Shown piece after piece: positions 3,454 to 27,918 of a stretch of 64,000 bases of DNA (positions are counted from its first letter, which is position 1; each line of letters begins with the position of its first letter). The DNA lies in NCBI GenBank assembly GCA_032622095.1, contig CP136066.1, positions 101,639,319-101,703,318 of the forward strand, in the 5' to 3' direction. Origin of the DNA: Siphonodentalium dalli. Its lineage: Eukaryota > Mollusca > Scaphopoda > Gadilida > Siphonodentaliidae. Both the position numbers and the translations under genes were made by a program. A model generated the notes under the pieces. That model ran no database searches and was not told the DNA's origin. It worked only from the letters and a program-made list of their open reading frames with translations.

Positions 3454-3608
3454 CGCCACCACCTCGGAAACAACGAAGGGAGAGAACCACTTTTACAAAG
3501 ACACAGCTCGATGTGTTGGAGAAGTTATTTGCTAAAACCAGATATCCTGATATATTCATGAGGGAGGAAGTGGCCATGAAAATTAACCTGCCAGAGTCCC
3601 GTGTACAG
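3454..3608 (+). CDS. Otx-like paralogue: homeodomain exon (HD 1-46)
   Basis: A 155-nt exon, three longer than the 152-nt counterpart in the minus-strand otx gene because it reads PPP-RKQ rather than QP-RKQ. The acceptor is TTTTTACAG at 3445-3453 and the donor is CAG|GTAATT at 3608/3609. The first two bases complete a split codon. Over homeodomain residues 1-46 it differs from the paralogue at about five positions: TK-T for TR-A, V for L, K for S, A for G. Helix 2 to early helix 3 is identical. Confidence 0.92.
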
Positions 3609-6600
3609 GTAATTATGGTATTGCCAGTGTTTGGACTCTAAATTGTCTGTTGGTTTCATAAGGTTTGTTCATTTGGACTTTTTATCAGAGAATTATACCA
3701 TACCTAAACACATAATAAAAACTGATCAAACCATGTGAATCCAATATTTACGGTTAAATCTGAAGTATGACATAATGTTATTTATTATTTATCACATAAT
3801 TCGCCCCTAAATCCGGCATAATATTTTTAGTAAGACATACACGTGTGGTATCGGCACGCGCAGTGACCTAAGAGCTCAGCGCAATGATGTGGATGTCAAT
3901 GCCGGAACTTTATTAGTATGCTAATTGGAATATAAGTATGATATTCGATTTGTAATGGGTTATTTAGTGTTGACTGTGAGATAAACATGAGTGATACGCG
4001 TGCGGGTGGTTGAACTATTATATCAACATGAAAAGACACATTTAAAATGGAGCTATATTTTTTCCTGAAGGTGTCTTTACTTCCCCTTTTTGGTGTTGAT
4101 AAGGAACTCAATAATATGATTACGTCAGTACGTATGGACAACTCAAAAACACGTACTTCGATCTATAAAATGGTAAATGTATGTTTCATGGGAGTGCCTG
4201 TATTTCCGGCCAACTTGGGTCAATACGTCAGTACGTATATATATATGGACAGAGACATGTCTCTATTCCGAAGGTTCGCTATTCCGAATATTCACTATTC
4301 TATTCCGAATATGTGAATACTAGCGTAATAGCATTTTTCATTCCTCGTGTGGTTTTTATGGGGGGGGGGGGGGGAGGGTGCACATGGGGCTGCAAATTTC
4401 AATTAATTTCTGTTTAAATACGCCCAGAATAGAAAACCTTCAGAATAACGAATCTTCGGAATAACGAATCTTCGGAATAACGAACATTTGGAATAGCGAA
4501 CCTTCGGAATAATGAATCTTCGGAATATGGAACCTTCGGAATAATGAACCAGATCCTGTATGAACATACCACGACACGTTCATCAATAAATGTATAAATG
4601 TTTCGTGGGACTGTTTATATATATACATATATAGGACTGGAGTAAAGTTGACACCAACGCGTCTTTGGTAATTTTGGTGCCCGCATTTCAACGAAATTTG
4701 GTGTGGTGACTCGGGGTGCCCTGGCAGAGTGTATAATGGCGTTAGTTTTTCTAAATTTTTATTTAAACAAATTTAAATGAATAAAAATATGAACCTATGT
4801 GAATATTTAGGTACAATATAAACCTATTTGCACGAGAATATGTTGCAGCACCAGATATAGTGGAATGTTGGCCACAGTTAGACATGGGCCAGAGTGAGAC
4901 ATTGCCTCTAACATTTCTCTAATTTCCAGACCAATATCAATGGGGCCAGTCCAGAGATATTAGCCATATAACACATGTTATTATATTTGTTCAAAATGCT
5001 ATCATCAGGTGAAGGTTGACTCTGGCCCAGCCACCAATTTTCAAGGCAAAATCAATTAATTTAATTTTTGCAATTTCAAGGGAAAAATATGTTTATTGGA
5101 TATAATACTGAATACATTTTTGTGATGTGGAAAACTGGCATTTATTACATATTTCACATAGCCACATCTGATTTATTTATAGACGTTTATGTATGCTTGA
5201 CTTTCATCGAGTTACACGGGTGGGGGCACAAAGACTCAATGGGACACAATTTCTGGCCTGTGGTAGGATCCACCTTCAGTAGATGATAGGCACTTAAAAA
5301 GGAATGACATAATTTGCCAAATGACTATTGTTTTGGGGCTGGAGTGGATAAATAATTTAGATCAAACAAACTGATGTCATTGTGCAATAGTGGTATGTGC
5401 GGGGCGTTTCCTATACGGTTACTACTAATTAATCAAACGTGCATATATGCACGTTTACTGAGTTCACCTTAAAAGACCATCGAACCACAAAAAATACTAG
5501 ATCATGTCATGAATCTCTACACTAGATATGACCGTATACTATAGACCATATTACACCAATTGCACTGTACACAAACCTGGGAACTATTTTATGTTCTGAC
5601 AGCGAAATTTATAACAATGAATGATCAAGAAGGGAATATATTTTCCTTTATTGTTAATACTTGTTCCTCGATAATCTACTTCACAGTAGGGGTGGTCCCA
5701 GCTCGAGATTGCTTGCTTGTTTGTGACTTTTGTGTGATTATATCGTACTCTCAGGTGTCCCATCAGTGTGATGGTCAATACTATTGATAGTGGAGACTGA
5801 AATTAATAATAGTGATGGAAATTTAATTTTATTTAATTCTATTTTAATTTAATTCTATATATGTTTCTATGCCAAATAATTTAATGATCGTTGAGAATTT
5901 TATAATTGCCCGGGAGGAATTACATTGGTGTAAGGGACGCAAAGCAAAATCAACCACAAAGTCACTTAAATCTTGCAATTTCAAAGTTAGACCTTCACAT
6001 TCTATGACACACATTATTAAGGAACGGGTATTTCATAATTTATTACCTGTACTGTTTTTTCATTGTTACAAACTTCCCTATCGCAACAGCAAAAACTTTG
6101 TACTGGTGGAATATATCATTCTCGACGGGCATAGATACATAGAGATTCATGGCATGGTCTAAGAAAATGCTATCAGATTAAACATTTATATGACCATATG
6201 CGATTGCCCCATGAATCATGTAGAACTAAAAGGTCATGGCAGTTGGAACATCTCGGCCTGGAATTATTATGTTTAGCATACAGATTATTCCAATCCCAAT
6301 GTGTCAGGTCGACAATAGCAAGTACGCAGGGCTATATTTAATAATTTTTCCACAAATACCACTAGTATATATGCTAGCCATGCTGACCGGGCTCCCGGTT
6401 AATGCTTAAGGTTTAAACCGAGAACACAGTGTTAAAATCATGAAATATTTAATATATGAGAATGCTGAAACAAATCACCTTTAACTTAATGGCGTTATTA
6501 ACGGTGCATTATTATTATAATTATTATATTTAACTTGATCTGTCCATCACAGGAAACAGAATTCTTAGATGGAAAGTTGAAAGCATATCCTCTCACCAGT

Positions 6601-25781: not shown

Positions 25782-26360
25782 TTATAACACTTGGAACTTG
25801 GCCCAGCTTGGGTCTTTGTAGTCAGCGATATCTGCTCGGTCAAGTTGGTTCTGGTACTGAAGATTGTAGTGGCTGTAGGTTTGAAGTGGTGGCGAGTTGG
25901 ACGGACTGTTACTCTCCATTCCTGACGAGTTTAGATGTGACTGGTCGTGGATTGACGTCTGCTGTTGATGTGATGTCTGCATCACCGGCCACTGCATGCT
26001 ACCGTAGTAGTCCGTTCCTGCATAATACGGGGATGGTGCATAGTTGTGCGCGTATGACGATTGCGTGTTGGCGACCGGGTAGCTGAGGGTGTTGCGTGTT
26101 GGGTACTGTTGACTGTAACTCATTGTGTCGACGTTTGTGTTGATTGAGACTGGATTCCAGATGGACGACGAAGCAGAGAGAGGATTTGTGGGGACTGGTG
26201 ATATGATCTCCGACGCCTTGTACAGATCAGGTGATGATGACGTGCTGGGTGGAGATTTCGCCTTCTTTGGTGCCGGTGGAGAATCGCCATCCTTGGCTTT
26301 GTTGAGGTCAATCGATTTCTGTTGTTGTCTGCACTTGGCTCGTCGGTTCTTGAACCATAC
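25782..26360 (-). CDS. otx: otx coding exon 3 (HD 47-60, C-terminal region)
   Basis: 579 nt including TAA (25782-25784). The acceptor is ATCTTATAG before GTATGG. It opens [14 protein letters not shown] and ends WAKFQVL. Numerous His, Gln and Tyr residues lie between 178 and 270, as in other Otx activation regions. Confidence 0.97.
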   Translation of the reverse strand, partial: VWFKNRRAKCRQQQKSIDLNKAKDGDSPPAPKKAKSPPSTSSSPDLYKASEIISPVPTNPLSASSSIWNPVSINTNVDTMSYSQQYPTRNTLSYPVANTQSSYAHNYAPSPYYAGTDYYGSMQWPVMQTSHQQQTSIHDQSHLNSSGMESNSPSNSPPLQTYSHYNLQYQNQLDRADIADYKDPSWAKFQVL

Positions 26361-27918
26361 CTATAAGATATACAAATAATAAGTTAAAAACTGGGATATT
26401 GACACATGATATTACAAACGTTACCAATTAGATCCATCCAGATGAATAATAAATAACAAATTAATAATAGATGAAGTTAACCAACATTAAAAGCTGGGGG
26501 CACTAGCATCGTTATAACCCATAAAATATTAATTATGTACACAGGATTTAAGATACATAAATAAACAAAGATGTCCAACAGATTAGGTAGCCGATATGGT
26601 ATACTCTATTAGGGAAAATATAAAAATTGGGTCAACTTATAAAGCCCATGAAAATGAATGAATGGGAACCTAGTACTACTCATGCCCGATGATTTAATTT
26701 TCAATGGTATAAATTATTTGCTCACCAATAAGTTTATATTAAAAATTCAAAAAAAAATATTCTTACCTGGACACGAGATTCAGGTAGGTTGATTTTCATG
26801 GCGACCTCCTCTCTCATGAAGATGTCGGGATATCTGGTCTTGCCAAAGAGAGACTCAAGAAGGTCTAGCTGAGCTCGAGTGAATGTGGTGCGTTCACGTC
26901 TCTGTTTGCGAGGTTGTCCTAAAATTAAAATAAGATTATATATCATGTTGTCATTGTCCAAAATATCACAGAAAAGGCTGAATATTGGACAGAAACATGG
27001 GAACCCTTCTGTTAGAAATGTTGGATGGTTGATGCTTCAATTATATTTCTTAACAATGCATGTTGCGTTAGTTTTTCTAACAATTATCCCCGCGAGGTCT
27101 TTCCCTTTTTACGCGAACTTACGAACCATGTAATTGTTCGCTTCTCGGCTTGTCTTGGCCCTACTTCTGACAACACAGCCCTTGCTTCAATGGACCCTTA
27201 AAAGTTCATTAGGAATGTTTTCTTAAAGCCTAATGCGTAGCAGAAGAAATTGAAAGGAGGTACGTTGTTGTTATAGTACGACTATGCAGTGTAATTGTTT
27301 CTAGTTGCGATGGCCGCCCGGGGCGAACATGGGACACATTATAACCTATTGTAATCTATCCCCTTTATCAAAGAATGTACCGCCGTCAGATAATTAGAGG
27401 TATACAGCGAACAGGTATAGATTTTGACAAGTTTAATATAGCTTTAGGCTAATCTAATGAATGACCAGCAATGGATTTGGAAAAAAACTGCTTATGAACA
27501 CAAGAATTCAATACGATGCTTCTTATTCATATATATCAAAACTTTGAATGTTGAAACCAATTATTATTCTACAACATATTAAAATGAGCAATGAAGCATT
27601 ATTGTGACGAGATCACCAGAAAATATTATTTCCCATCTGCATATATTCGTAACTTCTTTAAGTAAAGGCGAGTTACATTTTACTAATATCAGAATGATGG
27701 ATCTAATTCGCTGGACCATAAACTACTTGAGAACCAAATACACACTGAAATAAGCTATATGGATAGGGATAGTTACCTGGAAATCCAAGAGCTGGGTGCA
27801 TCATGTCCATGCTGGAGAGACTGGAGGTTGGCATCGCGCTCAAGGGGTACATGCTGGTGTTGGCGGATATCTTAGCCTGCTGCATGGATGAAGGAGGGTA
27901 AGCCATTGTAGTCATCAT
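25782..27918 (-). CDS. otx: Otx (orthodenticle) homeobox transcription factor
   Basis: A nuclear homeodomain transcription factor; the family specifies anterior, head and sensory territories in bilaterians. Three coding exons, 27918-27777, 26918-26767 and 26360-25782, join in frame to 290 residues, close to vertebrate Otx length. Order: N-terminal region with MAYPPSS and [12 protein letters not shown]; homeodomain 53-112 (QRRERTTF ... WFKNRRAKC, Lys at position 50, residue 102); a Ser/Pro/Lys-rich linker; SIWNP at 164-168 (vertebrate SIWSP); a Tyr/Ser/Gln-rich region; and the terminus [13 protein letters not shown]. The intron after Gln98 is at homeodomain 46/47, as in other Otx genes. The start is the first ATG of MMTTMAYP; the second ATG directly follows it. 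The gene runs opposite to the paralogue at 3454-13976. No lesions were seen. Confidence 0.97.
26767..26918 (-). CDS. otx: otx coding exon 2 (HD 1-46)
   Basis: 152 nt. The acceptor is TTTTAATTTTAG before GACAACC and the donor is CCAG|GTAAGA at 26767/26766. It encodes [18 protein letters not shown] and the rest of helices 1-2, ending at Gln46. Confidence 0.97.
27777..27918 (-). CDS. otx: otx coding exon 1
   Basis: 142 nt of coding sequence, 47 codons plus one base. The donor on the minus strand is CCAG|GTAACT (27777/27776). It contains the Otx N-terminal landmark MMHPALGFP, comparable to LLHPSVGYP in vertebrates. Confidence 0.95.

Follow-up and report, generated by a model that had tools for sequence, protein, structure and literature searches.

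Two convergent Otx-family homeobox genes with near-identical homeodomains and different C-terminal tails in Siphonodentalium dalli

The window analysed here is a 64,000-nucleotide (64-kb) stretch of contig CP136066.1 from Siphonodentalium dalli, and it contains two homeobox genes of the Otx family, which is defined by its homeodomain and known for head and brain patterning. Gene A on the plus strand and gene B on the minus strand are convergent, and their coding ends are 11,805 bp apart, which bears out the description in an earlier note on this DNA of two Otx homeodomains lying tail to tail at a distance of 11.8 kb. The window does not contain the whole of gene A. Since the exon with its homeobox opens with a splice acceptor of phase 1, there must be a first exon upstream of position 3454. 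The coordinates of both genes and their associated features are compiled in Table 1.

Gene B encodes a complete Otx protein of 290 amino acids in three coding exons. The protein carries MDMMHP in its N-terminal part, the motif SIWNP and, at its C-terminus, a tail with the sequence [12 protein letters not shown]. With respect to Otx membership, an SIWSPA-like motif and a C-terminal OTX tail are both present. The N-terminus of gene B aligns with that of human OTX2 with a score of 52 and its tail aligns with the OTX2 tail with a score of 130, and neither score was reached by any of 500 shuffles. The 180-codon tail of gene B stayed open in 11 of 2000 dinucleotide shuffles. Exon GC content is 0.498 for gene A and 0.504 for gene B, compared with 0.376 for the whole window. 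In gene B, the intron that interrupts the homeodomain between residues 46 and 47 measures 406 bp.

The two genes share their intron positions and phases. Both contain a phase-0 intron between homeodomain residues 46 and 47 and a phase-1 intron just before the homeodomain, the latter deduced in gene A from the acceptor alone, and introns at these two positions are typical of Otx. The exon models are in agreement with the earlier observation that the 46/47 intron and Lys50 are kept in both genes, and the intron positions and phases common to A and B show that the duplication was made at the DNA level, introns included. The two homeodomains are identical at 54 of 60 residues and differ at positions 10, 11, 15, 18, 21 and 59. 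Residues 22-58 are all identical, and the exact identity previously noted from helix 2 to early helix 3 is thus even wider than claimed. When the homeodomain regions of A and B are compared over 65 aligned codons, differences fall on 13 first, on 4 second and on 39 third positions; the preponderance of third-position over second-position differences shows that the duplication is old and that the homeodomains have been under long purifying selection. Where both genes encode the same residue (58 codons), a different codon is used in 36 cases. The Nei-Gojobori (NG86) estimate for this region yielded a nonsynonymous divergence (dN) of 0.098 and a synonymous divergence (dS) that was not computable (returned as -1) and is read as saturated. 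An allelic, haplotypic or recent copy is ruled out by the 39 of 65 third-position differences. A recent segmental duplication was likewise rejected, as a comparison of positions 1-16000 with 23001-30500 returned nine matches; the exon with the homeobox accounts for one of them, at 82 percent over 85 bp, and the other eight are taken to be dispersed repeats.

Both proteins were identified by the Pfam homeodomain model (E = 2.3e-22 for A and 2.1e-21 for B), and among solved relatives human OTX2 scores best with each of them (114.5 bits for A, 118.8 bits for B), which together exclude a chance resemblance. CRX scores 110.0 (A) and 112.7 (B) bits, goosecoid 68.6 bits with either gene, and PITX2 66.4 (A) and 68.2 (B) bits. 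Identity to the OTX2 homeodomain amounts to 54/60 residues in gene A and 55/60 in gene B, with one mismatch in each contributed by the solved construct's own first residue, while gene A shares 35/60 residues with PITX2 and 33/60 with goosecoid (GSC). A homeodomain tree of 11 rows unites A, B, OTX2, CRX and fly Oc in one group, supported at 93/93 (95.8/95 under LG+G4). Together with the shared introns and phases, this clade sustains the proposal that both genes belong to the Otx family and derive from a DNA-level duplication; it also speaks against gene A as a non-Otx gene of the Lys50 (K50) type, a reading that was rejected. A placement of the plus-strand gene outside Otx, which the earlier note had named as grounds for refuting its reading, did not occur in this resolved tree, and another tree of 8 rows did not resolve the point. 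At position 36, A and B both have Met, and OTX2 and CRX have Leu. This Met36 may be a derived residue shared by the two genes, and it hints at their common descent after the split from the OTX2 and CRX lineages. Judged from its sequence, the Otx membership of gene A rests on the homeodomain, the introns and the tree.

The tail of gene A contains no recognisable OTX motif. Neither an SIWSPA-like motif nor a C-terminal OTX tail was found, and the protein gave no match to Pfam TF_Otx. Three W[SG]AP motifs (SWSAP, EWGAP and QWSAP) are present, and the last exon also encodes an acidic run of 12 Asp residues followed by further Asp-rich sequence. This run corresponds to an in-frame GAT microsatellite (13823-13884), which is likely to be length-variable between individuals. 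Local alignment of tail A with the OTX2 tail gave a score of 46, which was reached by 53 of 500 shuffles, and alignment with tail B gave a score of 58, reached by 38 of 500. Tails A and B cannot be aligned confidently, and the earlier statement that the C-termini have diverged fully is a fair one. The related statement that one copy is conserved and the other fast-changing applies to the tail of gene A only and not to its homeodomain, given the identities of the two homeodomains to OTX2. When the 212-codon tail of gene A was shuffled as a whole by dinucleotides, 0 of 2000 versions stayed open, a control that is inflated because the shuffled GAT run makes TGA stops. The 161 codons preceding the run stayed open in 4 of 2000 shuffles and the 29 codons past it in 848 of 2000, the latter being too few codons to tell.

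Table 1. Features of the two convergent Otx-family genes and the region between them (positions in the window).
Feature	Position	Strand	Remarks
Gene A homeobox exon, homeodomain arm to Gln46	3454..3608	+	acceptor CAG (phase 1), donor GTAATT
Gene A intron at homeodomain 46/47, 9,693 bp	3609..13301	+	largely filled by two tandem copies of a 4.1-kb repeat
Gene A last exon, VWFKNRRAK (Lys50), then 212-codon tail and stop	13302..13976	+	three W[SG]AP motifs, 12-Asp run
Intergenic region between convergent genes A and B	13977..25781	.	no homeobox by motif scan
Gene B exon 3, VWFKNRRAK (Lys50), basic stretch, SIWNP, [12 protein letters not shown] tail, stop	25782..26360	-	
Gene B exon 2, homeodomain arm, helices 1-2, start of helix 3 (to Gln46)	26767..26918	-	
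Gene B exon 1, first coding exon (MMTTMAYPP...[13 protein letters not shown])	27777..27918	-	phase-1 donor GTAACT at end
Candidate promoter TATAAA, ~100 bp upstream of gene B ATG	28014..28019	-	consensus match only

Genes A and B are very probably an old, functional pair of Otx paralogues that originated from the DNA-level duplication of one Otx gene. The copies, made long ago with their introns, now lie adjacent to each other in opposite orientation. Several observations weigh against this reading. No convincing counterpart of the N-terminus of gene B or OTX2 was found in positions 1-3453, and the term complete-looking, as used in the earlier note, therefore holds for the homeodomain of gene A, but not for gene A as a gene. 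In the bit-score list of gene A, two non-Otx entries, the two-domain DUX4 chains (up to 96.8 bits for A and 95.4 for B) and aristaless (88.2 for A and 85.7 for B), outrank the nematode Otx ceh-37 (84.2 for A and 88.8 for B). The 8-row tree, which included DUX4, drew the Otx set without resolution, and support is weak (67/73) for its branch between A plus B on one side and OTX2 plus CRX on the other. Under LG+G4, the 11-row tree did not join A and B, and gene B paired with fly Oc (76.3/63). Furthermore, the gene B protein gave no match to TF_Otx (PF03529) up to an E-value of 10, whereas human OTX2 matched at 9.7e-32, and the middle region of gene B is thus also well diverged; the TF_Otx region is not known to be required of invertebrate Otx members. 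K50 homeodomains bind bicoid-type TAATC(C/T) sites, and TAATCC occurs 29 times in the window where 44 occurrences were expected, which is below chance and gives no sign of K50 autoregulatory clusters in the window. Autoregulation through clusters of such sites was rejected on account of this lack of enrichment.

The lineage duplication proposed in the earlier note may be correct, although two homeodomains are too short a basis for that conclusion. An ancient duplication reaching across a phylum or further, with gene A as an overlooked, widespread second Otx that other lineages lost or that was classified as a divergent homeobox, is possible but less likely than not. Such an origin would agree with a synonymous divergence of the homeodomains that is too large to compute and points to old age, and with trees that do not firmly group A and B. 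It is at variance with Met36, which is common to both genes and possibly a shared derived residue, and with the published insect and crustacean duplicates, which look independent in the relevant passages of PMC4084641. It is very improbable that gene A is a decaying pseudogene of which only a conserved homeobox remnant persists. A first exon missing from the 3.45 kb upstream, an intron filled with repeats and a microsatellite-derived Asp run within an exon would all fit such a remnant, but the splice sites and the reading frame of gene A are intact, residues 22-58 are identical to those of gene B, and the codon pattern of the homeodomain (4/65 second-position versus 39/65 third-position differences) and the open frame of the 161 tail codons preceding the GAT run speak against decay.

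Repeats are common between the two genes, with 44 percent of the intergenic stretch matching elsewhere in the window, and could have led the assembly to join two alleles or two distant loci wrongly. We assign very little probability to this possibility, since the third-position divergence and the unrelated tails rule out alleles, the 64-kb window contains no N, and linked Otx paralogues also occur in Strigamia. The tail without a recognisable Otx motif would also be accounted for if gene A belonged to another K50 family of the PRD class, such as goosecoid or Pitx, that had converged on Otx. This seems scarcely credible for a gene that shares 54/60 homeodomain residues with OTX2 as against 33/60 with GSC and 35/60 with PITX2, that is included in the 93/93 Otx clade, and whose intron positions and phases are the same as those of gene B.

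If A and B constitute an old, functional pair of Otx paralogues, their Lys50 and identical residues 22-58 predict that both proteins should bind the same TAATC(C/T) sites. The division of labour between them would then depend on their tails. According to the passages concerned, OTX2 without its C-terminal domain loses most of its transactivation and the C-terminal part of CRX contains a WSP motif and the OTX tail (PMC10172487), and OTX tails, of which OTX2 has two copies, are described as transactivating (PMC7084737). Gene B, which keeps SIWNP and the OTX tail, is the likely anterior-patterning Otx activator, and gene A, in place of the Otx effector parts, has a tail of unrelated sequence that contains the tryptophan motifs and the acidic run. 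Both genes are predicted to be expressed in overlapping anterior domains via shared regulation. Whether gene A has a specialised role in which it assists gene B as a co-regulator or competes with it, with shared regulation, the same sites and a different output, we consider an evenly balanced question; a different output from shared sites would be the simplest expectation, because gene B keeps SIWNP and the OTX tail and gene A is without them. The more far-reaching proposal that gene A represents an undescribed class of Otx paralogues, with an essentially unaltered DNA-binding domain, an effector region replaced by a new tail of tryptophan motifs and acidic residues, and a clade-wide role beside the canonical gene as modulator of the same target sites, is speculative and rather unlikely.

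The large intron of gene A is largely made up of a 4.1-kb unit arranged head to tail in two copies (4112-8203 and 8201-12378), between which corresponding pieces show 67-89 percent identity. A partial third copy of this unit is located 41 kb away at 53584-56017, and pieces across the copies are 67-90 percent alike. The intron also contains two complementary arms (3611-3711 and 12687-12789; 86.5 percent alike), which sit 2 bp inside the donor and 512 bp before the acceptor. Their predicted RNA duplex has an energy of -128 kcal/mol, compared with a minimum of -53 among 200 random pairs of intron segments. We suggest, without going further than that, that the arms could loop out the repeats and shorten the distance between the splice sites during splicing; alternatively, they might be the ends of an insertion.

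In the remainder of the 64-kb window, no third homeobox was found by a six-frame pattern scan for the full helix-3 motif (WFxNRR type) and the RRERT arm, a scan by which a strongly diverged homeobox would be missed. Ten long open frames outside genes A and B, picked by length, gave no Pfam match above the cut-off, and the rest of the window thus looks gene-poor. An Rfam scan and a tRNA scan of the window were both empty. A pattern search for relatives gave 10 matches among viral contigs and 97 among bacterial and archaeal contigs, and not one of these was confirmed. The gene-poor part includes tandem arrays at 47255-48228, 36578-37143 and 60636-62117, with units of ~155, 224 and 163-166 bp, respectively. 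Imperfect palindromes were identified at 19425-20427 (69 percent over ~1 kb against its own reverse complement) and at 56909-57126 (93 percent over 218 bp), and each is perhaps a foldback element.

The premise of the earlier note that most invertebrates have one Otx gene is a weak one. It agrees with the single gene of Platynereis, but several duplications have been published. The passages on Otx in one study list three genes for Nematostella, at least three for the leech, two for Hydroides and one for Platynereis (PMC4407770), and a tandem duplication of OTX is described for the Nematostella lineage (PMC1779571). Spirobranchus is likewise reported to have Otx A and Otx B (PMC6118893). Among arthropods, otd1/otd2 pairs are described from Tribolium, Daphnia and Parhyale, where the insect and crustacean duplications are presented as independent and the rescue abilities of the copies partly differ (PMC4084641). 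Strigamia maritima has three Otx genes, of which otx-A and otx-B are described as closely linked and expressed alike (PMC5654096), and a lineage-specific Otx duplication is reported for all three myriapod genomes of one study (PMC7523956). In the passages concerned, two hemichordate studies speak of a single Otx without giving a gene count (PMC5539250, PMC5786327), and no hemichordate with two Otx genes was found among the matches listed in the open-licence literature.

Duplicated Otx genes, including closely linked ones, are already known, and the pair described here is a further instance for a gene that has been duplicated repeatedly and often serves as a head-patterning marker in comparisons across phyla. 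As a consequence, studies that use one 'Otx' probe in this animal would have to name the copy that is followed. Should A and B both be expressed in the head, they would provide a natural test of the contribution of the Otx tail, since a nearly identical DNA-binding domain is combined with a different effector in the same neighbourhood.

The closest likeness to known systems lies in such linked or duplicated genes. As described in the cited passages, Strigamia otx-A and otx-B resemble A and B in being paralogous Otx genes that lie close together in a single invertebrate genome (PMC5654096), and the otd1/otd2 genes of Tribolium, Daphnia and Parhyale resemble them as Otx duplicates (PMC4084641). 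The otx genes of Nematostella are similarly clustered by tandem duplication, with three genes there as opposed to two convergent ones here. Among vertebrates, the eutherian ETCHbox genes are described as divergent duplicates of CRX, some of them in tandem, and as highly divergent (PMC8208926); the pair A/B differs in that the homeodomain is conserved and the tail is changed. Gene B shares the N-terminal, SIW(S/N)P and OTX-tail motifs with vertebrate OTX1, OTX2 and CRX, with one copy of the tail in gene B compared with the two reported for OTX2 (PMC7084737) and none recognisable in gene A. As far as the predicted proteins indicate, what sets the pair apart is the combination of a conserved DNA-binding domain with a tail that is quite different.

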